38,376 bases of DNA from a virus. The notes under the pieces were generated by a model. The model did no database searches. It was given only the letters and a program-made list of their open reading frames with translations, and had not been told where the DNA came from. The stretch lies in IMG/VR virus record IMGVR_UViG_3300031722_000081, positions 1-38,376 of that record; one strand, 5' to 3'. The translations under genes were made by a program, and so were the position numbers. The stretch's first letter is position 1. Every line of letters begins with the position of its first letter. Shown in pieces: positions 1,526-35,341 of this stretch.

Positions 1526-1559
1526 AATGACAAATATACTAGTGAAGAAAGGAACAGTA

Positions 1560-3758
1560 ATGATTGACTATGCAGATTTCTTAAAAGAGAAAAAGCGGGT
1601 AGCGTCAACCGTGGGGATTGACGTATCGCTAGATGACATCAACCCGATCCTCTTTGACTTCCAGAGGGTGCTTGTCCAGTGGGCACTGCGCAAAGGACGT
1701 GCTGCGCTCTTCGTCGATACTGGACTCGGCAAAACATTCTGTCAGGTGGAGTGGGCGCGTTTAGTTGGGGGTACATCACTAATCGTGGCCCCGCTCTCAG
1801 TGGCCCGGCAAACTGTCAATGAGGCGGCAAAGATCGGTGTTGATGTCCACTATACTCGTAGTGGCGACGACGTTATCAAAGATGGCATCAACATCACGAA
1901 CTACGAGATGTTAGATCATTTTGATCCTACTATGTTTCGATCAATCGTCCTCGATGAGAGTAGCATCCTCAAATCACTGGACGGCAAAACAAAGACAAAG
2001 CTCATAGATTTGTTTCGTGATGTCCCATATAAGCTCTGTTGCACTGCTACACCTGCACCAAACGACGTGACAGAGCTGACCAACCATGCCGAATTCTTGA
2101 ATGTCATGACGCGCACTGAGATGCTCTCCATGTTCTTTGTCCATGACAATAGCAACGGTTCAGGCAGTGGATGGCGGCTTAAGAGACACGCTGAAACCGC
2201 ATTCTATCGGTGGCTGGCATCATGGTCAATGAGCGTTAAAAAGCCGTCTGATATTGGTTTCTCTGATGAGGGGTATATTCTCCCTGCACTTCATGTGATC
2301 CCTGCATTTGTCGAAACCGATTATAGCCCCCCTGATCAGCTCTTCTTTACCGGGCTTCATGGTATCCAGGACCGGGCGAAAGCACGCAAAGGCACGATCA
2401 ATGAGCGCATCAATCATATCGTGTCAATGGTAAGCGAAAGCTCCCAACAATGGATACTCTGGTGTGGTATGAATGAGGAGAGTGCAACTCTCGCAAAGCT
2501 CATCCCAGATAGTGTTGAAGTGACGGGGAGTGACTCACCCGACAAAAAGATTGATGCCATTGAGCGGTTTCAGCGTGGGGATATCCGTGTCCTCATAACA
2601 AAACCCAAAATAGCTGGATTTGGCATCAACCTACAAAACTGTTTCAACATGGCATTCATCGGCCTCTCTGATAGCTTTGAAGCGTACTACCAGTGCGTTC
2701 GCAGGTGCTATCGATTCGGGCAAAAGATGCCCGTGTTTGCATACATTGTCCTCGCCGATATTGAGCGCGAGATTTACGCAAATGTTATGGAGAAAGAGCA
2801 AGAAGCAAAGGAAATGAGCGATAAGCTTATCGACTGTGTAAAGGAGTCAGAGATGGAAGAACTAGCGTTAGCAGAACGCAAGGAAGAATATAGGACGGAT
2901 ACGATCCGTGAGAACCAATACACAATCATGCTCGGTGACAGTTGTGAGCGGCTAGCAGAGGTGGCCGACAACTCTATCGATATGGCGCTTTTCTCTCCCC
3001 CCTTTGAGTCACTTTATACCTATTCCCCAACGGAGCGCGATCTGGGCAATAGCAAAACATCGGATGAATTTTACACTCATTTCAACTACATCATCGACCA
3101 TTTGTTACGGGCCATTAAACCAGGGCGTAACTGTTGCGTGCATGTGCAACAGTTAGCCGCCAGCCTTATCAATGATGGATACATCGGCCTGAAAGATTTT
3201 CGCGGGGATGTGATCCGGGCATTCATTGCCCGTGGTTTCATCTATCATGGTGAAATCTGCATTCAAAAAAATCCACAGTCTCAAGCCGTACGCACAAAGG
3301 CTAAAGGGCTTATGTTCGTGCAGCTCCATAAAGATAGTTCATGGCTCAGGCCCGGTCTCGCTGATTATATCGTGGTGTTTCGCAAGCCCGGTGAGAATGC
3401 GGTGCCCATCCATCCAAACATCTCTCATGACGACTGGATTAAGTGGGCGCATCCGGTCTGGTACGACATCAAGGAGAGCGATACGCTCAACGTTGCGGAA
3501 GGGCGCGATAAAGACGATGAGAAGCACGTTTGTCCCTTACAATTGCAAACCATTGAGCGATGCGTCAGGCTATGGAGTAACCCCGGTGAAACGATCCTCT
3601 CGCCATTTATGGGCATCGGCAGTGAAGGATATGAGTCGGTTCGGCATGATCGCAAGTTTGTTGGTATTGAGCTAAAACCGTCCTATTTTCAGGCGGCTCA
3701 GAAGAATTTAGCGCGTGCGGTTGCCACAAAGCAGCAAGCAACTCTCTTTGACCTGTGA
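1560..3758 (+). CDS. SNF2-type DNA helicase fused to a DNA methyltransferase
   Basis: 732 residues with two enzymes in one chain. Residues about 20-440 form a superfamily 2 (SNF2-like) ATPase: Walker A DTGLGKT near residue 52, DEAH-box equivalent LDES near 131, CCTATPAP (motif III), and a C-terminal lobe ending in RCYRFGQ (motif VI arginines). Residues about 450-732 form a beta-class amino-methyltransferase: target-amine motif SPPF at 479-482 and the SAM-binding motif SPFMGIG at 681-687 followed by FVGIEL. SPPF favours N4-cytosine, but N6-adenine is not excluded. Phages use such fusions to modify their own DNA, probably against host restriction. ATG 1560 is preferred over 1527 because AAAGGA lies upstream. 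No specificity partner is seen nearby. Confidence 0.9.
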   Translation: MIDYADFLKEKKRVASTVGIDVSLDDINPILFDFQRVLVQWALRKGRAALFVDTGLGKTFCQVEWARLVGGTSLIVAPLSVARQTVNEAAKIGVDVHYTRSGDDVIKDGINITNYEMLDHFDPTMFRSIVLDESSILKSLDGKTKTKLIDLFRDVPYKLCCTATPAPNDVTELTNHAEFLNVMTRTEMLSMFFVHDNSNGSGSGWRLKRHAETAFYRWLASWSMSVKKPSDIGFSDEGYILPALHVIPAFVETDYSPPDQLFFTGLHGIQDRAKARKGTINERINHIVSMVSESSQQWILWCGMNEESATLAKLIPDSVEVTGSDSPDKKIDAIERFQRGDIRVLITKPKIAGFGINLQNCFNMAFIGLSDSFEAYYQCVRRCYRFGQKMPVFAYIVLADIEREIYANVMEKEQEAKEMSDKLIDCVKESEMEELALAERKEEYRTDTIRENQYTIMLGDSCERLAEVADNSIDMALFSPPFESLYTYSPTERDLGNSKTSDEFYTHFNYIIDHLLRAIKPGRNCCVHVQQLAASLINDGYIGLKDFRGDVIRAFIARGFIYHGEICIQKNPQSQAVRTKAKGLMFVQLHKDSSWLRPGLADYIVVFRKPGENAVPIHPNISHDDWIKWAHPVWYDIKESDTLNVAEGRDKDDEKHVCPLQLQTIERCVRLWSNPGETILSPFMGIGSEGYESVRHDRKFVGIELKPSYFQAAQKNLARAVATKQQATLFDL

Positions 3759-4623: not shown

Positions 4624-5009
4624 CTATTTTTCATACCGAGCGAGAAGACGAACTTCATTATATGCCCTATTCTGTCTACCTCAAAACGCCGGAGTGGTTA
4701 GCAACGCGTGAGCGGATCTTGCTCCGTGACGGCTACCGGTGTCGTTTATGCGGGCGAGATAGGGCATGTAAAGACAGCCAGGGTCGGGCTATCGTGTTAG
4801 TCGTACATCACAACTCCTACGATCATCGAGGCTATGAATTAGATCATGAACTGATCACTCTCTGCAAACAAGAACACGATCTTTTTCATGCCATGAATCC
4901 AGATTTCCCCCGATCCTACGGTAGACCAAAGAAGCAACGAACGATAAAACGAGCAGAAAAGCGCAACACCGATCCCAAAACATTGCCGAAAATGCGTATG
5001 CTGTTTTGA
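4614..5009 (+). CDS. HNH endonuclease
   Basis: 131 residues with a full HNH zinc-stabilised nuclease layout: CRLC (Cys43, Cys46), a VVHH core (His65-His66), then LC-x3-H-x3-H (Cys84, His88, His92). HNH enzymes cut DNA with one metal ion. In phages such free-standing genes are either homing nucleases or, when next to the terminase, packaging partners; here the terminase is 20 kb away. SD AAGGAGG is the strongest in the region, yet the start codon lies in an inverted repeat arm, implying tight control. The next gene is a DUF262 protein, a family that in type IV restriction (GmrSD) works with an HNH-type domain. Confidence 0.85.
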   Translation: MIDTIFHTEREDELHYMPYSVYLKTPEWLATRERILLRDGYRCRLCGRDRACKDSQGRAIVLVVHHNSYDHRGYELDHELITLCKQEHDLFHAMNPDFPRSYGRPKKQRTIKRAEKRNTDPKTLPKMRMLF

Positions 5010-5018
5010 GGAAAGATT

Positions 5019-5047
5019 TTGACAAAATTATCACTTCATGCTATGAT
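5019..5047 (+). promoter_or_regulatory. Promoter of the DUF262 gene
   Basis: Perfect -35 TTGACA (5019-5024), 17-base spacer and -10 TATGAT (5042-5047). It starts just after the HNH stop and drives the DUF262 gene at 5090, giving a leader of about 35 bases that contains the palindrome at 5051-5068. Confidence 0.75.
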
Positions 5048-5050
5048 GGT

Positions 5051-5068
5051 TGGGTCAGTATTGACCCA
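5051..5068. promoter_or_regulatory. Palindromic operator or leader hairpin
   Basis: TGGGTCA-GTAT-TGACCCA, 7-base perfect arms, placed from about 4 bases downstream of the -10 box and covering the predicted transcription start. This is the usual position for a repressor operator; the 4-base loop also allows a small RNA hairpin. Confidence 0.6.
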
Positions 5069-5089
5069 ATGAAGAAAGGAAACAAACGT

Positions 5090-6223
5090 ATGCCTGATGA
5101 GAAGATCATCGAGAGTAACAGGGTGACGATCCGGTCACTGATTGCCAATTGGGAGTATTATTATAATATCCCCGATTGGCAACGCGGCCCCGTATGGGCT
5201 AAGCCAAAACAGCGCGGTTTCATCCGTACACTACTTGAGGGCAACTACGCAAATGCAATCGTGTTCTACCCGGAGAACGGGAAACGGTATGTCCTTGACG
5301 GCCAACAACGCCTGAACGCTATTCGTGCCTTCGTCGATGGTCGATTAGGTCTCTATAGCAATAACATGGGGCGTTATTACCGAGACCTCAAAGAAAACGA
5401 TCTAAACAAATTTCTCAATTATTCCATCACTTTTGACACGCTGCATGGATGGTCACTTGATGGTATCATTGAGAGCTACATTGCAATCCAGAATCTCCAG
5501 GCACAGAAGGCATCGGAGAAGCAATTTGCGTACTCCACCACGACAGAGATCGGAAAGTTTGCCCGCACACTGGCAACGGAGAACCCGTTCTTTTCTCAAG
5601 TTTACATTGCCAATGAATACAAAGGCGATTACAGCATGGCACTCTACCCTATTGCAATGGAGCGATTGGGGGGACTTGCAGGCATGGATACACCGTCCAT
5701 TAATGCGCTTGTGAAGGGTGTAAGCCACGGTGTCATCCTTACCGATGCCATGAAGTACCGCGTCGATGAGAACCTTACCTATGCCGCTTTGCTGTTTAGC
5801 GGTATCAAAACAAAAGCACGAACGGCTGTCATCCCGATCTACCAGTCAATCGCATTCTTACGCCTCTGTGGCTATGATCTGGACCATTCCGAAAGCGGCG
5901 CACTTGCCGCATGGTTTAGGGAAAGTGTTGACGATGATCACAAACAAGTTTCATTTGTTGATGGCGTGCTGCATCATATCTACCGACGTGGTGCCCAAGA
6001 AACATTCTGGTTGAATCAACTCAGAGCAATGGCCTCATCGCCCGGCCTTCTCCCCGGAGAGAACAGCACACGGCAAATTAATCGCCTCTATTCCTGGATG
6101 TACCGCAATGGGAAATGCATCCACTGTGGGGAGTCAGTTCGCCCTTCCCATTTTGATGAGCACGCCTTTAGTGCCGGTGACACCTGCAAAACACAACAAG
6201 CACAACCAGTCAACGCAGACTAA
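5090..6223 (+). CDS. DUF262 (GmrS/ParB-like) protein
   Basis: 377 residues. The N-terminal 120 residues match the DUF262 fold: IPDWQRGPVW near residue 26, a helix, then the signature LDGQQRLNA with Asp70-Gly-Gln-Gln-Arg74. In GmrSD type IV restriction enzymes this domain binds and hydrolyses NTPs to drive an attached HNH-like nuclease. The nuclease domain (DUF1524) is absent; the C-terminus instead has a possible metal site (CIHC, then H and C near residues 343-366). ATG 5090 has AAGAAAGGAAAC upstream and follows its own promoter; the in-frame ATG at 5006 would start before that promoter. Role unknown: DNA-damage, modification sensing or phage defence are all possible. Confidence 0.8.
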   Translation: MPDEKIIESNRVTIRSLIANWEYYYNIPDWQRGPVWAKPKQRGFIRTLLEGNYANAIVFYPENGKRYVLDGQQRLNAIRAFVDGRLGLYSNNMGRYYRDLKENDLNKFLNYSITFDTLHGWSLDGIIESYIAIQNLQAQKASEKQFAYSTTTEIGKFARTLATENPFFSQVYIANEYKGDYSMALYPIAMERLGGLAGMDTPSINALVKGVSHGVILTDAMKYRVDENLTYAALLFSGIKTKARTAVIPIYQSIAFLRLCGYDLDHSESGALAAWFRESVDDDHKQVSFVDGVLHHIYRRGAQETFWLNQLRAMASSPGLLPGENSTRQINRLYSWMYRNGKCIHCGESVRPSHFDEHAFSAGDTCKTQQAQPVNAD

Positions 6224-24681: not shown

Positions 24682-27036
24682 GTGATAGAAGAGGTGATCA
24701 CACCCCCTGAGCTACGCGGGGCGGCATTAGAACTAGGCAAGTGTACAGACCTAGAGGTCTGTATGGATGGCCCTGCGGGTTGTATAGCAGGTGAAACCAG
24801 AATATACAACCCGATCACCGGTACACATACGCCGATTAGGGATCTCTATAGAGATAGTATAGCACCAATAGTGCAAACGCTCAGAGGTGCTATACAAGCT
24901 GAGAAACCTTTTATAAAGGGAGTTGCAGATCTCTTTAGAGTGAGAACACGCTCAGGCCGGGAGTGTACTATTACTGGCAACCATCTATTTCTGACACCGG
25001 GCGGGTGGCGCTACGCCTCTTCGTTGCAGATCGGTTTACCCCTTCTTGTATCCGCTTCACCCCTTCATCAGACCATTGAGGCGTCTTACCCCTCAATGTC
25101 TCTGCAAGATGCATGGCATTTGAGCCAAAAAGCTCAAGGTTATCAACATGATTGTTTTGCCTGTCATTATCACGGTGATGCACAACTTCTTGCGGGTCAA
25201 GATATCGCCCTATCTTTGCCTCTACTACAAGGCGATGCTCACGCACATACCCGTGACGATCCTTATAGGGATGATCGGGGCTTTTTACGAGAATATACCC
25301 ATCCTCATCTACCATACGCCCCCCTTTCCATGCCGGATTATTTTGCATCTTCTGTTCAAAGGGAATATAATCAATGTCATGGTCAACGAGAAACTTCTTT
25401 ACTAACTGATGCTTTGTTCCAATACGACGGGCAATCTCAGATAGAGAAATGCCTTGTTGCGCCCATGCTATCACATTGTCCTGATGTTGATAGCATGCCC
25501 CTCCATGAGCCTTTGTCAGTTCAATACCCCTTCTCTTCAGTAAACCGGTTACGCGACGAGGGGGTAAGCCTAGCTCTTGAGCAGTCAAAACAGTGCTCTT
25601 CGTTCTCTGATACGACTCAAGAATACTCTGTATTTCCTGGTCAGATGCGTGATGATATCCTTTCATTTCATACCTCCAATAGTGATTATACAGCACAATG
25701 GGATACGGTATCAAGTATTGAGTACGTTCGTACTGATGAGTACTATGATCTCCATGTACCGCATGCACACCACTATTTAGCTGAAGGTATGTGGCATCAC
25801 AACACTGGAAAAACGTTCGCGTGCTTATATAAAGTGCATATGATGCTTACGTATTTCCCCGGTACGAAGGCGCTTGTTGCACGCAAAACAAGCGTAGCAC
25901 TTGCCTCGACTGCTATCGCAACGTATAAATCGATGATCGATCCCCGTGAGGGCATTACCTTCTTTTCTGGCAACCGCATACGCCCCGCCGCATTTGAATA
26001 CCCCAACGGTTCACAGATGATCCTCACTGGTCTCGATAAGCCTGAGAAGGTGAAGTCACTTGAGATCGACCTTGCCTACATCAATGAAGCAACTGAATGC
26101 GACTTGCAAGATCTAGAGTTTGTTCGTTCCCGTCTTAGACATGGGAAACTTCCCTATTATCAAGTCATCATGGACGTAAACCCGGAGGGGCCGTCACACT
26201 GGCTTAACTTGCGCATGAATAGCGGAGTGACAAAGCGGCTTGTCTCACGCTTTGAGGATAACCCCCGTTTCTATGACGCTGATGGGCGGCTCACCCCCGA
26301 TGGTGATATGTACATCAATAAGATCCTGGCAGGTTTAACAGGCGTACGCCTCATGCGTCTCTTCTATGGCAAGTGGGTAGGAGCAGAGGGTTCTATTTAT
26401 GCCGATACGTGGGATAGACGCCGCAACGTTATCAAGCCATTCCGTATCCCCGCAGATTGGCCCCGCTATCTGGCGGTTGACTTTGGATTTAAACACCCCT
26501 TTGTCTGTCTCTGGATTGCCGTTGATCCTGATGGGCGGCTCATCTTGTACAGAGAGTGGTATAAAACAAACATGATCGTAGAAGATCATGCAAAAGTCAT
26601 CAAGCGGCTATCGAGATGGGGACAACCGGGGGGAGAACCACCACCACGGCAGATTATTTGTGACCATGACGCTGAAGATAGAGCCACGCTAGAGCGGCAT
26701 CTCGGCATGATGACCACCAAAGCCTATAAGGAAGTGCGCTCAGGTATCCAGGCTGTTCAAGCGCGTTTTCGTGATGCAGGAGACGGACGCGCACGCTTTG
26801 AAGTCTTTGAGAATGCACTGGTTGAACGTGACGCTATTCTCGATGCTGAAAAGAAACCTATCGGCTTCATAGAAGAGGTCGACTCATATGTATGGGCGAT
26901 GAATCACGATGGGAGTTATAGAAATGATGAACCCGTAAAAGAGTATGATCATAGCTGTGATCCGGTTCGCTATATTTGCGCACGTTTTGACCGTACGCCC
27001 GGTAAACCGACATATAAGAAGACGATATGGAAATAG
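24682..27036 (+). CDS. terL: Terminase large subunit, interrupted by an intein
   Basis: 784 codons; 443 residues remain after intein removal. The large terminase pumps DNA into the prohead by ATP hydrolysis and cuts the concatemer. The Walker A loop is split: GPAG at 30-33 and TGKT at 375-378. Walker B is LAYINEATE with Glu469. The RNase H-like nuclease has LAVDFGF (Asp600) and ICDHDAED (Asp661, Asp663). Start is GTG 24682 four bases after the previous stop, with only a weak ribosome-binding site. Packaging depends on splicing because the ATP site is not formed until the intein leaves. Confidence 0.93.
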   Translation: MIEEVITPPELRGAALELGKCTDLEVCMDGPAGCIAGETRIYNPITGTHTPIRDLYRDSIAPIVQTLRGAIQAEKPFIKGVADLFRVRTRSGRECTITGNHLFLTPGGWRYASSLQIGLPLLVSASPLHQTIEASYPSMSLQDAWHLSQKAQGYQHDCFACHYHGDAQLLAGQDIALSLPLLQGDAHAHTRDDPYRDDRGFLREYTHPHLPYAPLSMPDYFASSVQREYNQCHGQRETSLLTDALFQYDGQSQIEKCLVAPMLSHCPDVDSMPLHEPLSVQYPFSSVNRLRDEGVSLALEQSKQCSSFSDTTQEYSVFPGQMRDDILSFHTSNSDYTAQWDTVSSIEYVRTDEYYDLHVPHAHHYLAEGMWHHNTGKTFACLYKVHMMLTYFPGTKALVARKTSVALASTAIATYKSMIDPREGITFFSGNRIRPAAFEYPNGSQMILTGLDKPEKVKSLEIDLAYINEATECDLQDLEFVRSRLRHGKLPYYQVIMDVNPEGPSHWLNLRMNSGVTKRLVSRFEDNPRFYDADGRLTPDGDMYINKILAGLTGVRLMRLFYGKWVGAEGSIYADTWDRRRNVIKPFRIPADWPRYLAVDFGFKHPFVCLWIAVDPDGRLILYREWYKTNMIVEDHAKVIKRLSRWGQPGGEPPPRQIICDHDAEDRATLERHLGMMTTKAYKEVRSGIQAVQARFRDAGDGRARFEVFENALVERDAILDAEKKPIGFIEEVDSYVWAMNHDGSYRNDEPVKEYDHSCDPVRYICARFDRTPGKPTYKKTIWK
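24971..25666 (-). CDS. HNH homing-type endonuclease, antisense within the intein
   Basis: 231 residues on the strand opposite terL. ATG 25666 has GGAGGT five bases upstream. Two HTH segments come first (about residues 21-45 and 62-95, ISLSEIARRIGTKHQLVKKF). Then an HNH_3-type domain at 134-186: GYVREHRLVVEAKIGRYL, VVHHRDNDRQNN (His163, His164, Asn171) and VDNLELF with His186. The order HTH-HNH is seen in free-standing homing nucleases. The gene lies entirely within intein codons 97-329, reaching block B but not F, and its stop is in the block B coding sequence. It would be expected to cut intein-free terminase genes, but that is inference. Confidence 0.9.
   Translation of the reverse strand: MKGYHHASDQEIQSILESYQRTKSTVLTAQELGLPPRRVTGLLKRRGIELTKAHGGACYQHQDNVIAWAQQGISLSEIARRIGTKHQLVKKFLVDHDIDYIPFEQKMQNNPAWKGGRMVDEDGYILVKSPDHPYKDRHGYVREHRLVVEAKIGRYLDPQEVVHHRDNDRQNNHVDNLELFGSNAMHLAETLRGKTPQWSDEGVKRIQEGVNRSATKRRSATRPVSEIDGCQ
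25685..25714 (-). promoter_or_regulatory. Promoter of the antisense endonuclease
   Basis: On the minus strand, TTGATA (25714-25709), 18-base spacer and a perfect TATAAT (25690-25685), about 20 bases before the ATG. It gives the endonuclease its own transcript, antisense to terL. Confidence 0.7.
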
Positions 27037-30430: not shown

Positions 30431-33400
30431 ATGAGTTACGGTAGCAACCCAACAACCACAACGCAGACCGCGCTTGGCACCAATCAGTTGCCAGTCTCGA
30501 CGGTCTACACACCAAACACGGCGGCGGGCAACTTGACGCCCCTTGAAGGCGGGCCTGTTACAACTGATAGCAACAGCAATAAATCAGCCCCGATTTCAAC
30601 CTATACCAAAGATGGCTCAAATGTCACCATTGGTACAACCACCGACACGGCATATAGCGGGTCAGGGGCCGGGACAGAAATAGCCATACTCAAAAAGATC
30701 GTTGCCCAACTAGCGGCATCGCTTGCAGTCTCGGGTACCGTTACCGCAAACGCGGGTACCAATCTCAATACGTCAGCTTTAGCACTTGAAACAGGGGGCA
30801 ACTTAGCAAGCATTAAAGCCGACGCTGATAGTATTTTATCAGGGATCGGGGCAATAAGCGATGCGGCCTATAGCGGTTCTGGGAGCGGGTCTGAGATTGC
30901 TATTCTTAAAAAGATTGTTGCCCAATTAGCGGCAACAATCAGCACGTCTATTGCGTCTGCCTTACCGGCTGGTACCAACGTTATAGGCCACGTGATAGCC
31001 GACTCAGGGAGCACTACCGCCGTCACCTCACTACCCGCGCTCCCATCAGGCTCAAACCTTATCGGTAACGTTGAACTAGTGGACGGGGCGGGTACCAATA
31101 AAGCAACTATTTCAGCAGGTGGGGCACTCAAGGTTGATGGATCATCCGTAACACAACCGGTATCTGCTAGTTCTTTACCACTGCCCACCGGGGCCGCAAC
31201 CGCCGCAAAGCAACCTGCACTCGGAACGGCGGGCACACCCTCTAGTGATGTGCTTTCAGTACAAGGTATTGCTAGCATGACCGCTTTGAAGGTTGATGGA
31301 TCAGCAGTCACTCAGCCGGTAAGCGGCACTGTTATCGTTCAGCAGTCTACGGCTAGTAACCTCAAGGTAGACTTATCGGGCACGTCTGCGAACGCAACGG
31401 CACTTAAAGTTGATGGGAGCGCGGTGACACAACCGGTAAGCGGCACTGTCTCTGATCAGCATAGCAATGTGCTTATCGACTATGATAGTGGGGCTGGTAC
31501 GCAAAACATGACGGTGTTTGGTATCGCTTTACCGGCCTCGGGTGGATCGGTTGCAGGCGGCACTACATCAAATCCGCTCAAAGTAGATCCCACGGGCACG
31601 ACAACGCAACCGGTCAGTGCTACTAGTCTTCCCTTGCCTACCGGCGCTTCCACCTCTGCCAAACAACCGGCGCTCGGCACAGCCGGATCAGCAAGCTCAG
31701 ATGTCATCACTGTGCAAGGCATCGCGTCCATGACTGCTCTAAAGGTTGATGGTAGTGCGGTCACTCAGCCGGTAAGCGGTACTGTCACGGTCACACAAGC
31801 AACGGCGGCGAATCTCAAGGTTGACCTCTCAGGCACAAGCGCGAACGCTACGGCCTTGAAGGTGGATGGATCGGCAGTCACACAACCCGTATCGGGGACG
31901 GTAACAGCGAACGCGGGCACAGGGACGTTTACCGTCTCAGATCAACATTCAAATAACACTACTGACTATGATACCGGGGCCGGTACACAGACCATGACGA
32001 TGTATGGCCTTGCTCTCCCGGCTTCAGGCGGTTCAGTACCGGGCGGCACTGCTACCAACCCGGTACGCGTTGACACAACTGGTACGACAACACAGCCTGT
32101 AAGCGCGGCTAGTTTACCCCTTCCTACCGGCGCTTCTACAAGTGCAAAGCAACCGGCGTTAGGAACGGCTGGTAGCGCGTCTAGCGATGTGTTAACGGTG
32201 CAAGGCATTGCTAGTATGACCGCCTTGAAAGTAGACGGTTCTGCCGTCACACAGCCAGTTTCAGGTACTATCACAGTCACACAAAGCACCGCTAGTAACC
32301 TCAAGGTTGATCTCTCAGGCACATCCGCAAACGCTACCGCGCTCAATGTAGCTGATCAGCACACAAACATCACGACAGACTACGATAGCGGGGCGGGCAC
32401 GCAAACAATGACCATGTACGGCCTCGCTCTCCCGGCCAGTGGTGGAAGTGTTGCGGGCGGTACATCTGCCAATCCGATTAAAACAGATCCGACTGGTACC
32501 ACGACTCAGCCCGTAAGTGCTACGTCCTTACCTCTCCCAACGGGGGCGGCTACATCTGCCAAGCAACCTGCACTCGGAACGGCGGGTAGCTCAAGCACAG
32601 ATGTGCTCTCAATACAAGGGATAGCAAGTGGTACACCAATACCGATCACCGGATCAATCACGGCAACAAACCCATCTGTAAGTACCGATGGATCTGCAAT
32701 CCCTACATCAAGCACACTCATCGGAGCATCAGACGGCACAAACCTACAACAGCTCTTAGTAGAGTCTGCAAGCAATAGAAACTTGCGCGTAGGGATCTAC
32801 GGCGGTGCAACAGAGGCAAGCGTAACCGGTTCTAATGCCCTCAAGGTAGACGGGTCTGCGGTCACTCAACCCGTAAGTGCTGCTAGTCTGCCACTGCCTA
32901 CGGGAGCTTCCACATCTGCCAAGCAACCAGCTCTAGGTACTGCGGGCACTGCAAGTACCGATGTGCTCTCAGTACAGGGCATTGCTTCCATGACGGCGCT
33001 CAAAGTGGATGGGAGTGCAGTGACACAGCCCGTCTCAGGGACAGTCACGGTCACACAAAGTACAGCCGCAAACTTAAAAGTAGACCTCTCAGGAACGGCG
33101 GCTAATGCCACGGCTCTAAAGGTAGACGGATCAGCCGTAACACAACCGGTATCAGGCACTATTACGGCTAACGCAGGGTCAGGAACGTTCACGGTTTCAG
33201 ACCAGCATAGCAATAACACCACTGACTACGATACAGGCGCGGGCACGCAAACAATGACCATGTACGGCATCGCGTTACCTGCAACGGGCGGCTCAGTTGC
33301 AGGGGGTACTGCTACCAACCCGGTACGCACTGATCCCACGGGCACAACCGCACAGCCCGTCTCAGGGACGGTAGCCGCTACGCAATCGGGCACATGGACA

Positions 33401-35341
33401 GTACAGCCCGGTAACACGGCCAATACAACTGCATGGAAAGTGGATGGTTCTGCGGTGACGCAACCCGTCTCAGGGACAGTCACATCCAATATAGGCACAA
33501 CAAACGGCCTTGCACTTGATACGTCGATTAACGGCGTCATCGTCTCACAAGCAAGCACCACAAGTGGAGAGAAGGGGCCACTCATTCAGGGGGCCGTGAC
33601 AACGGCATCACCGACATACACAACCGCGCAAACAAATCCGCTCTCTCTGACAACGGCGGGGGCGCTACGGGTAGACGCTAGCGCGACCACGCAACCAGTC
33701 TCAGGAACGGTAACAGCCAACGCCGGAACAAATATGTCAACCGCCGCGCTTGCTCTTGAGACTGGTGGGAATCTTGCCACGCTAGCCGGGGCGGTCACAT
33801 CGGCAAAGGTGCAATCAAACGTCGCTCAGATCAACGGCGTGGCCCCTCTCATGGGCAACGGTGTATCAGGTACAGGTGCGCAACGTGTGACGATTGCAAG
33901 CGACTCTACGGGACAAATAGCACTAGCGGCGGGCAGTGCAGTGATCGGCCACGTGATAGCCGACTCAGGATCGACAACCGCCGTCACTCAAGCAACCGCT
34001 AGCTCACTCAATGCGCAAGTTGTTGGGGCCGTGGCATCTGCCGGAAGCAATGCGGGCAATCCGCTCAAAGTAGGCGGTGCATTCAATAGCACACAGCCAA
34101 CGGTGACAAATGCTCAGATTGTTGACGCTCAGATGACCGCTAGAGGTGCACAGATTGTCGCTACCGGAGTCGATACCTTTAGCGCAACGGTTTCAGGGAC
34201 CGTCACAGCGAACGCTGGTACTAACCTTAACACATCGGCCCTTGCCCTTGAGACGGGCGGCAACCTCGCTACGCTTGCGGGCGCAATATCTTCCACAAAG
34301 ATGCAAAGCAACCTTGCACAAGTGAACGGCTCAACAACCGTCACCGCCGCAACTGGTGTGCAAAAGGTAGGCATTGTAGGCAACACGGGGGCAACGGTAG
34401 ATAGTGGAGTAGGAGCGGGGACAGCCCCTACCAATGCAGTTGTTGGGGGTCTCGTTTACAATAGCGCATCGCCCGCCCCAACGTCCGGGCAATCAATGGC
34501 AATGCAAGCCGATCAAGCAGGAAATATCCGCGTCTTTCAGGGTGTCTCGTTCGCTACCCTTGCTGCATGGAACAGTAGCACAACGATTAACACCGTCCAG
34601 AACATATTTACCAATAGCGGGGCTGAGAGCGTTATCGTCCAATTGACACAGACAACGACTATAACGGTGGGTGCTATCACATTTGAAGTAACCTACGACA
34701 ATACTTCAAACTGGCAGACGATACCAGCGAACGCCGTCTTTGATCCTACGTCAACAACCTTTGCGGCAATCAGCTTACCCTACACACTGCAAGCAAGCAC
34801 CAATAAGATTATCGGCCTCAATATGAACGGGGCCACGGGCCTACGTATCAAGCTTTCAACGGCTATCACCGGGTCAGGTAGTGTGACACCGTTCTATGCG
34901 CTACAACCTTATAGCCCCGCCGATACGATAATTGCGCTTTCGCCCACCGCCGCAAACTTTCTTACATCAACCAATATCAACCAGATAAGCGGTACGAGCG
35001 CCGGAGTAGCCAATCCGCTCTACGTCTCTCAATCTGCTAATACTGGCTATGTGAGTGCGTTTGGCAGTAACGCGTCGGCGCTGACCGCAAACACTGATGC
35101 AGCATTTAAGTGGGGGGCCGGTGGTACCACGGTGGTCAACCATATCATGCTGCAAAACAATACCGCGCTCAATGTATTGTTTGATCTTGATGTAGCAACA
35201 AACGCAGGTAGTCCAATATGCTCACCGGGTCAAACATTGTTCTTTGATGTGCAAACAACGGCGCTACACCTTCAGGCCAACGGCACACCGAACCTCAACG
35301 GATCGGGTGCGGCGAACATTGTAATCAGGGCATGGTTGTAG
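30431..35341 (+). CDS. Very large repeat protein, probable fibre or adhesin
   Basis: 1636 residues of low-charge, Thr/Ser/Ala/Gly/Val-rich sequence. ALKVDGSAVTQPVSG and close forms recur about ten times, within larger units of 120-250 residues holding LPLPTGASTSAKQPALGTAG, SDQHSNNTTDYDTGAGTQTM and TVTANAGTN. Such beta-strand repeat modules are known in phage structural proteins of unassigned role, most likely trimeric fibres. The last 300 residues are non-repetitive and beta-rich (possible tip). The start follows the portal stop directly. No catalytic or lectin motif is visible in the repeats. Confidence 0.75.
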   Translation: MSYGSNPTTTTQTALGTNQLPVSTVYTPNTAAGNLTPLEGGPVTTDSNSNKSAPISTYTKDGSNVTIGTTTDTAYSGSGAGTEIAILKKIVAQLAASLAVSGTVTANAGTNLNTSALALETGGNLASIKADADSILSGIGAISDAAYSGSGSGSEIAILKKIVAQLAATISTSIASALPAGTNVIGHVIADSGSTTAVTSLPALPSGSNLIGNVELVDGAGTNKATISAGGALKVDGSSVTQPVSASSLPLPTGAATAAKQPALGTAGTPSSDVLSVQGIASMTALKVDGSAVTQPVSGTVIVQQSTASNLKVDLSGTSANATALKVDGSAVTQPVSGTVSDQHSNVLIDYDSGAGTQNMTVFGIALPASGGSVAGGTTSNPLKVDPTGTTTQPVSATSLPLPTGASTSAKQPALGTAGSASSDVITVQGIASMTALKVDGSAVTQPVSGTVTVTQATAANLKVDLSGTSANATALKVDGSAVTQPVSGTVTANAGTGTFTVSDQHSNNTTDYDTGAGTQTMTMYGLALPASGGSVPGGTATNPVRVDTTGTTTQPVSAASLPLPTGASTSAKQPALGTAGSASSDVLTVQGIASMTALKVDGSAVTQPVSGTITVTQSTASNLKVDLSGTSANATALNVADQHTNITTDYDSGAGTQTMTMYGLALPASGGSVAGGTSANPIKTDPTGTTTQPVSATSLPLPTGAATSAKQPALGTAGSSSTDVLSIQGIASGTPIPITGSITATNPSVSTDGSAIPTSSTLIGASDGTNLQQLLVESASNRNLRVGIYGGATEASVTGSNALKVDGSAVTQPVSAASLPLPTGASTSAKQPALGTAGTASTDVLSVQGIASMTALKVDGSAVTQPVSGTVTVTQSTAANLKVDLSGTAANATALKVDGSAVTQPVSGTITANAGSGTFTVSDQHSNNTTDYDTGAGTQTMTMYGIALPATGGSVAGGTATNPVRTDPTGTTAQPVSGTVAATQSGTWTVQPGNTANTTAWKVDGSAVTQPVSGTVTSNIGTTNGLALDTSINGVIVSQASTTSGEKGPLIQGAVTTASPTYTTAQTNPLSLTTAGALRVDASATTQPVSGTVTANAGTNMSTAALALETGGNLATLAGAVTSAKVQSNVAQINGVAPLMGNGVSGTGAQRVTIASDSTGQIALAAGSAVIGHVIADSGSTTAVTQATASSLNAQVVGAVASAGSNAGNPLKVGGAFNSTQPTVTNAQIVDAQMTARGAQIVATGVDTFSATVSGTVTANAGTNLNTSALALETGGNLATLAGAISSTKMQSNLAQVNGSTTVTAATGVQKVGIVGNTGATVDSGVGAGTAPTNAVVGGLVYNSASPAPTSGQSMAMQADQAGNIRVFQGVSFATLAAWNSSTTINTVQNIFTNSGAESVIVQLTQTTTITVGAITFEVTYDNTSNWQTIPANAVFDPTSTTFAAISLPYTLQASTNKIIGLNMNGATGLRIKLSTAITGSGSVTPFYALQPYSPADTIIALSPTAANFLTSTNINQISGTSAGVANPLYVSQSANTGYVSAFGSNASALTANTDAAFKWGAGGTTVVNHIMLQNNTALNVLFDLDVATNAGSPICSPGQTLFFDVQTTALHLQANGTPNLNGSGAANIVIRAWL

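Follow-up and report, generated by a model that had tools for sequence, protein, structure and literature searches.

The locus described here raises the question whether an intein residing in a phage terminase gene may harbor a complete homing endonuclease gene on its opposite strand and, if so, which of the two overlapping proteins is maintained by selection. Homing inteins canonically carry the endonuclease fused in frame, and no such fusion was found in the intein studied. The locus is part of a complete IMG/VR virus record of 38,376 bases, referred to below as the window.

The terminase intein and the gene opposite to it

The terL gene is located on the plus strand at positions 24682-27036 and encodes 784 amino acids, with matches to Terminase_3/Terminase_6N and to PHROG 2 (terminase large subunit). 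It constitutes a single frame with no stop codon anywhere, and so the sense strand is open across all 696 bases of the opposite gene, as had been claimed from the sequence. The N-extein (24682-24780) ends with GPAG and the C-extein (25804-27036, identified by sequence and Pfam) begins with TGKT, the Walker A motif of TerL being split into these two halves. The insert of 341 residues between them (24781-25803), running from C1 to HHN, matched Pfam Intein_splicing with E 3.9e-11, contains block B in the form TITGNH and ends with HHN/T, and was matched by Foldseek to the NpuDnaB (E 7.9e-7) and MtuRecA inteins. None of the Pfam nuclease families matched the sense insert. In the AlphaFold model pLDDT stays above 90 to residue 90 and drops at residues 91-95. 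The N-terminal part of the predicted Hint fold comprises residues 1-95 (24781-25065) and the C-terminal part residues 302-341 (25684-25803, pLDDT mostly above 85); the linker between them, residues 96-301 (25066-25683), is an open mirror image of the HNH gene, faces the HNH core and is predicted to be disordered (pLDDT below 50). When 16 relatives were aligned, the splicing blocks A, B (TxxH), F and G proved conserved, with C1, H and N invariant, and the centre could not be aligned. The insert is an intein with a modeled Hint fold and conserved splicing residues, for which splicing is predicted. The original prediction of in-frame splicing blocks and of a sense frame devoid of endonuclease agrees with these results.

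The minus strand carries, at 25666-24971, a predicted HTH-HTH-HNH homing endonuclease gene of 231 codons, in accordance with the full frame proposed before. Its product matched HNH_3 (E 1.3e-9) and HTH families of Pfam as well as the HNH family 10730 of PHROG (E 8.6e-32), and residues H164, N172, N176, N183 and H186 are invariant in the HNH alignment. The AlphaFold model (mean pLDDT 88.8) shows two units of three helices each and then an HNH fold. A Foldseek search with this model returned no significant match, the best named homing endonuclease being I-HmuI (1u3e; probability 0.94, E 0.25), to which profile comparison gave E 0.024.

Both expression signals ascribed to this gene were located on the minus strand. 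The Shine-Dalgarno sequence GGAGGT (25672-25677) lies 5 nt 5' of the ATG, and a candidate sigma-70 promoter, TTGATA-18-TATAAT (11/12), is situated just upstream at 25714-25685, with the -35 element at 25709-25714 and the -10 element at 25685-25690. With the GTG at 25768 as start, the minus frame would be longer (265 amino acids), but the ATG preceded by the Shine-Dalgarno sequence is the better start. In the two nearest relatives, L023 and L024, which have about 50% HNH identity, the promoter is kept at the same position as TTGACA-18-TATAAT and TTGATA-18-TATAAT, respectively. Over 109 relatives the best promoter score averaged 8.2 compared to 6.8 in shuffled sequences, a modest family-wide excess which may be partly due to conserved sense codons. 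Shine-Dalgarno-like boxes are commoner at the best start than at control codons across the relatives, in most of which the HNH gene starts about 128 bp from the C-terminal end of the intein.

The third position of the sense codons lies opposite the second position of the antisense codons, exactly as predicted, and first positions face each other. The HNH stop codon falls inside the N-terminal splicing segment (at intein residue 64 in the window), so there is true double coding in block B and in the tail of HNH. To estimate how easily such an overlap arises, synonymous codons of the window HNH gene were swapped, keeping the protein and its codon usage; the 1000 shuffled genes had a mean of 6.5 sense stops, and not one was stop-free. 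An overlap by chance was rejected on this basis, and also by the controls and the substitution pattern given below.

Three other reading frames of the window were noted. A protein with a GmrSD_N (type IV restriction) domain is encoded at 5006-6223 and an SNF2-type helicase fused to an N6/N4 DNA methylase at 1527-3758; a frame of 1636 residues following the portal gene (30431-35341) has no Pfam match at E 0.001.

Distribution among phages, prophages and host genes

The same layout was found in Pseudoalteromonas phage PHS3, where the annotation lists the HNH gene separately from a terL that is short at its N-terminus, in Pectobacterium phage Amona, inside a "hypothetical protein" that is TerL, and in two divergent IMG/VR contigs, one of which has it in an SNF2-type helicase and not in TerL. 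Together with the window, these first five loci share one phase. The HNH protein of Amona matches six further Pectobacterium phages and one Dickeya phage, and among the matches inspected in the phage collection the antisense-intein form occurred only in PHS3 and in this Pectobacterium/Dickeya group. Besides the antisense TerL intein, Amona has a second intein-splicing-domain match at 31048-31248 of PQ008971.1, annotated as hypothetical protein / homing endonuclease.

Further relatives came from three IMG/VR scans with HNH alignments and from one scan of bacterial and archaeal genomes, which with the first five gave 246 loci. As relatives were recruited with antisense HNH seeds and the best 80 of each list were taken, the census describes this HNH clade and not all inteins. 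A profile search of viral contigs with the sense alignment (A4) failed, there being no stretch conserved enough. In 241 of the 246 fetched loci the opposite strand was stop-free over the HNH match in the same phase. For 216 of these the frame also continued open beyond the match in both directions and an intein C-terminal motif was recognized; the rest were mostly truncated by the end of the contig or not caught by the motif rule. A second phase was open as well in only one locus. The 241 loci represent 177 distinct genes, forming 130 clusters at 90% and 65 clusters at 60% amino-acid identity. The claim of a separate antisense nuclease in a splicing-competent-looking intein thus gained support from the same layout in many phages. 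The halves of the intein share a single frame in the window and 0 stops were found in the 241 relatives; a split-intein layout, with the halves in separate frames, was not encountered there.

The C-exteins are mostly terminases, with some SNF2, DEAD or ResIII helicases and one AAA protein. In nearly all relatives the insertion falls within Walker A, ahead of [S/T/C]GK[S/T] or of the corresponding helicase sequence, and the +1 Cys/Ser/Thr is conserved. Prophages with the element were found in Enterobacter cloacae, Acinetobacter and E. coli MEI003, and it was also present in three metagenome-assembled genomes. In E. coli and PHS3 the HNH gene is located between terS and terL. RefSeq describes the MEI003 terL (L356) as incomplete, with a missing N-terminus, beside an HNH gene on the opposite strand; the frame is actually open through the intein. 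The element is thus widespread in phages and prophages, mostly going unnoticed or leaving a gene that is annotated as broken. The C-extein of this terL has a short tandem duplication, VVVNSSNPPVKDRVNSMNAMFCNANGERR occurring twice.

Two loci departed from the common layout. In L057 (IMGVR_UViG_3300012894_000085, 1-500) the antisense HNH is intact and the sense frame stops after block B, near the contig end; this may reflect a split intein, a dead allele or faulty assembly, and with regard to fractured genes the locus might be an intermediate. In L032 (IMGVR_UViG_3300017747_003784) the HNH lies outside any intein, has a short stop-free opposite frame and groups with antisense HNHs of helicase inteins, possibly being an escaped nuclease.

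Selection on the two strands and inheritance of the element

Substitutions were counted by codon position in 51 independent pairs of distinct genes. Differences at HNH positions 1, 2 and 3 amounted to 939, 857 and 2230, with position 3 exceeding position 2 in 50 pairs, and the identity of the sense linker was lower than that of HNH in 48. Since the third HNH position is the second sense position, it is the nuclease that is the constrained protein. Purifying selection acts on it, and the sense linker arises as a by-product that has only to remain stop-free. The different constraints expected for the two proteins were therefore confirmed by the concentration of substitutions at HNH position 3. 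Among the HNH-carrying homologues no case of a broken minus frame with a conserved sense linker was found; the reverse was seen, HNH being conserved across the relatives and the linker drifting.

The requirement for an open sense frame is visible in the nuclease itself. Over the 130 clusters 0 sense stops were observed against 778 expected from synonymous shuffling. This constraint reaches the HNH protein, so that Phe never stands before Ile, Met, Thr, Asn or Lys (0 of 416 Phe residues, 89 expected). In contrast, ten free-standing HNH relatives used as controls contained 71 stops in this phase, and Phe preceded one of these residues 11 times, compared to 9.4 expected.

All loci are in phase 1, for which 778 stops were expected, compared to 954 for phase 0 and 1181 for phase 2. 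That phase 1 is merely the easiest one was judged insufficient as an explanation, given that phase 0 need only avoid the codons TTA, CTA and TCA; common descent with frame locking is likelier. Once established, the phase would be locked, as the segments flanking the linker have to remain in frame.

The mobility of the element was followed in one TerL lineage (at least 86% identical), in a set of 80 loci (L264-L343) comprising 50 empty sites, 19 antisense-HNH inteins, 6 mini-inteins and 5 unclassifiable loci. The mini-inteins, 136 residues long and devoid of HNH, occupy the same TerL site (L276, L292-L294, L320, L321). The intein label is patchy on the C-extein tree, with at least 14 changes, and identical C-exteins were found with the intein (L311, L312) and without it (L318). 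Comparison of bearing and empty alleles showed the insertion to be exact. The +1 Ser codon is TCG or TCA in 18 of 18 bearing alleles and AGC in 41 of 50 empty ones, which mostly read CGC/AGC at the insertion site; this codon difference suggests co-conversion or, being synonymous, target-site resistance. In E. coli the TerLs of MEI003, intein-bearing, and ET729, with an empty site, are 82% identical. The empty site was read directly in ET729, the other E. coli matches listed covering the flanks alone.

In 58 divergent members HNH distances correlated with those of the two splicing segments (r 0.50 and 0.54; p 0.002), and extein distances correlated neither with HNH (r 0.07) nor with the C-terminal splicing segment (r 0.05). 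The nuclease and the splicing domain are inherited as a unit, independently of the extein. The constant phase and position together with this co-variation indicate that the element is probably of single origin; the deep HNH tree is poorly resolved.

A probable composite homing element and its alternatives

We consider the locus, with a probability of about 0.85, to be a composite homing element, in which a cis-splicing intein interrupts Walker A of TerL and has a homing endonuclease gene on the opposite strand. According to this model the sense strand would be translated as one precursor, from which the Hint domain (residues 1-95 and 302-341) would excise itself to give active TerL. The minus strand would have a promoter of its own, within the C-terminal splicing segment, and its transcription would yield a separate HTH-HTH-HNH nuclease able to cut Walker A sites lacking the intein in co-infecting or superinfecting genomes, and repair from the intein-bearing copy would insert intein and nuclease together. 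Production of the nuclease before or without late terL transcription is a plausible benefit, and convergent transcription could later silence it. Splicing, cutting, homing and the separate timing of expression, including expression when terL is silent, are what we infer.

HNH proteins encoded beside terminase genes have a packaging role in some phages. Such a role, which is also mentioned in PMC11855218, would make the HNH protein a packaging or host-takeover nuclease that works with the terminase and merely overlaps terL, without homing. The position between terS and terL in E. coli and PHS3 fits this proposal, but the same HNH family resides in SNF2 and DEAD helicase genes, the closely related TerL genes of the lineage above occur with or without it, and HNH distances do not track those of the terminase, all of which makes it quite improbable. 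Composition can produce long antisense frames, and the minus frame could be taken for a mirror-image or decaying frame held open by the sense protein alone; this is hardly credible in view of the HNH family profile matches, the excess of third-position substitutions, the higher identity of HNH than of the linker in nearly all pairs, and the models, in which the HNH fold is predicted with high confidence and the linker is disordered.

Inteins often go through phases with a dead nuclease. The composite element might thus be real and its nuclease mostly inactive or unexpressed in this phage, the more so as window-like contigs are identical at the protein level and selection within this lineage is not measurable. 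The intact frame, conserved HNH residues, Shine-Dalgarno sequence and promoter of the window, along with family-wide purifying selection, make this unlikely, if less so than the other alternatives. The sense frame could also go unspliced, HNH being either a plain insertion that breaks terL, which is what automatic annotation takes it for, or part of an insert tolerated as proposed for ShiLan; RefSeq marks the MEI003 terL as devoid of its N-terminus, and a splicing domain is missing from the HNH insertions of ShiLan type in methylases (PMC11855218). We regard this as very improbable, because blocks A, B, F and G and the +1 residue are conserved, a Hint fold is predicted, a split Walker A is hardly tolerable for an ATPase, and no sense stops occur over the 130 clusters.

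The composite element shares features with several known systems. Homing endonuclease genes are present on the antisense strand of group I introns, e.g. I-DirII in Didymium rDNA, where the nuclease gene likewise lies within a splicing element and is oriented against the host gene; there, however, splicing takes place at the RNA level and an open sense frame is unnecessary, whereas the present element codes on both strands. Fractured genes, reportedly described by Dassa et al. in 2009, have an intein divided into two halves, which flank a free-standing endonuclease gene. They likewise combine an intein with a separately translated nuclease, but their intein is split, and here one cis-splicing frame runs through the nuclease gene. 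With HNH homing endonucleases of the I-HmuI type (1u3e) the HNH core and helical DNA-binding units are common; only the core is alike, and I-HmuI is encoded in a sense-strand group I intron.

Homing inteins with an in-frame endonuclease, such as the sense HNH intein in the dCTP deaminase of cyanophage CL131 (PMC6293099), have in common with the present element the Hint domain, a nuclease between blocks B and F, a conserved insertion site and a patchy presence with mini-intein and empty alleles. Here, by contrast, the nuclease is on the opposite strand with its own start, Shine-Dalgarno sequence and promoter, and the sense linker contains no domain. The nearest described case is the ShiLan domain, together with the Pacc40 insertion (PMC11855218), also a phage HNH of a related family, concealed in a different frame of a host gene that stays open and about 45% identical to the present HNH over 80 amino acids. 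The ShiLan HNH lies on the same strand, out of frame, and has neither a splicing domain nor a Shine-Dalgarno sequence; in our element a splicing domain is present and HNH is antisense. PMC11855218 refers to a preprint dealing with inteins of non-canonical architecture in actinobacteriophages (10.1101/2025.01.02.630785). No account of an intein with a nuclease gene on its antisense strand turned up in our full-text literature search, which covered sources other than this preprint.

It seems reasonably probable that the relatives form a large intein class, probably of single origin, with the homing nuclease permanently antisense in one locked phase under its own promoter, its expression uncoupled from, and possibly opposed by, transcription of the host gene, and with HNH relatives that diversified to invade Walker A codons of unrelated P-loop ATPases in many phages. 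A selfish splicing element that makes its nuclease independently of the host protein would be a solution undescribed in the literature searched. The antisense-nuclease intein accounts for terminase genes that appear in annotations as broken next to an HNH gene, and the E. coli prophages, with intein-bearing and empty alleles of the same terL, offer a ready test system. With hundreds of examples, the family ranks among the clearest natural instances of antisense double coding over full length, in which one strand is under protein selection and the other is merely kept open, and the overlap leaves a sharp amino-acid signature, the absence of Phe before Ile, Met, Thr, Asn or Lys.
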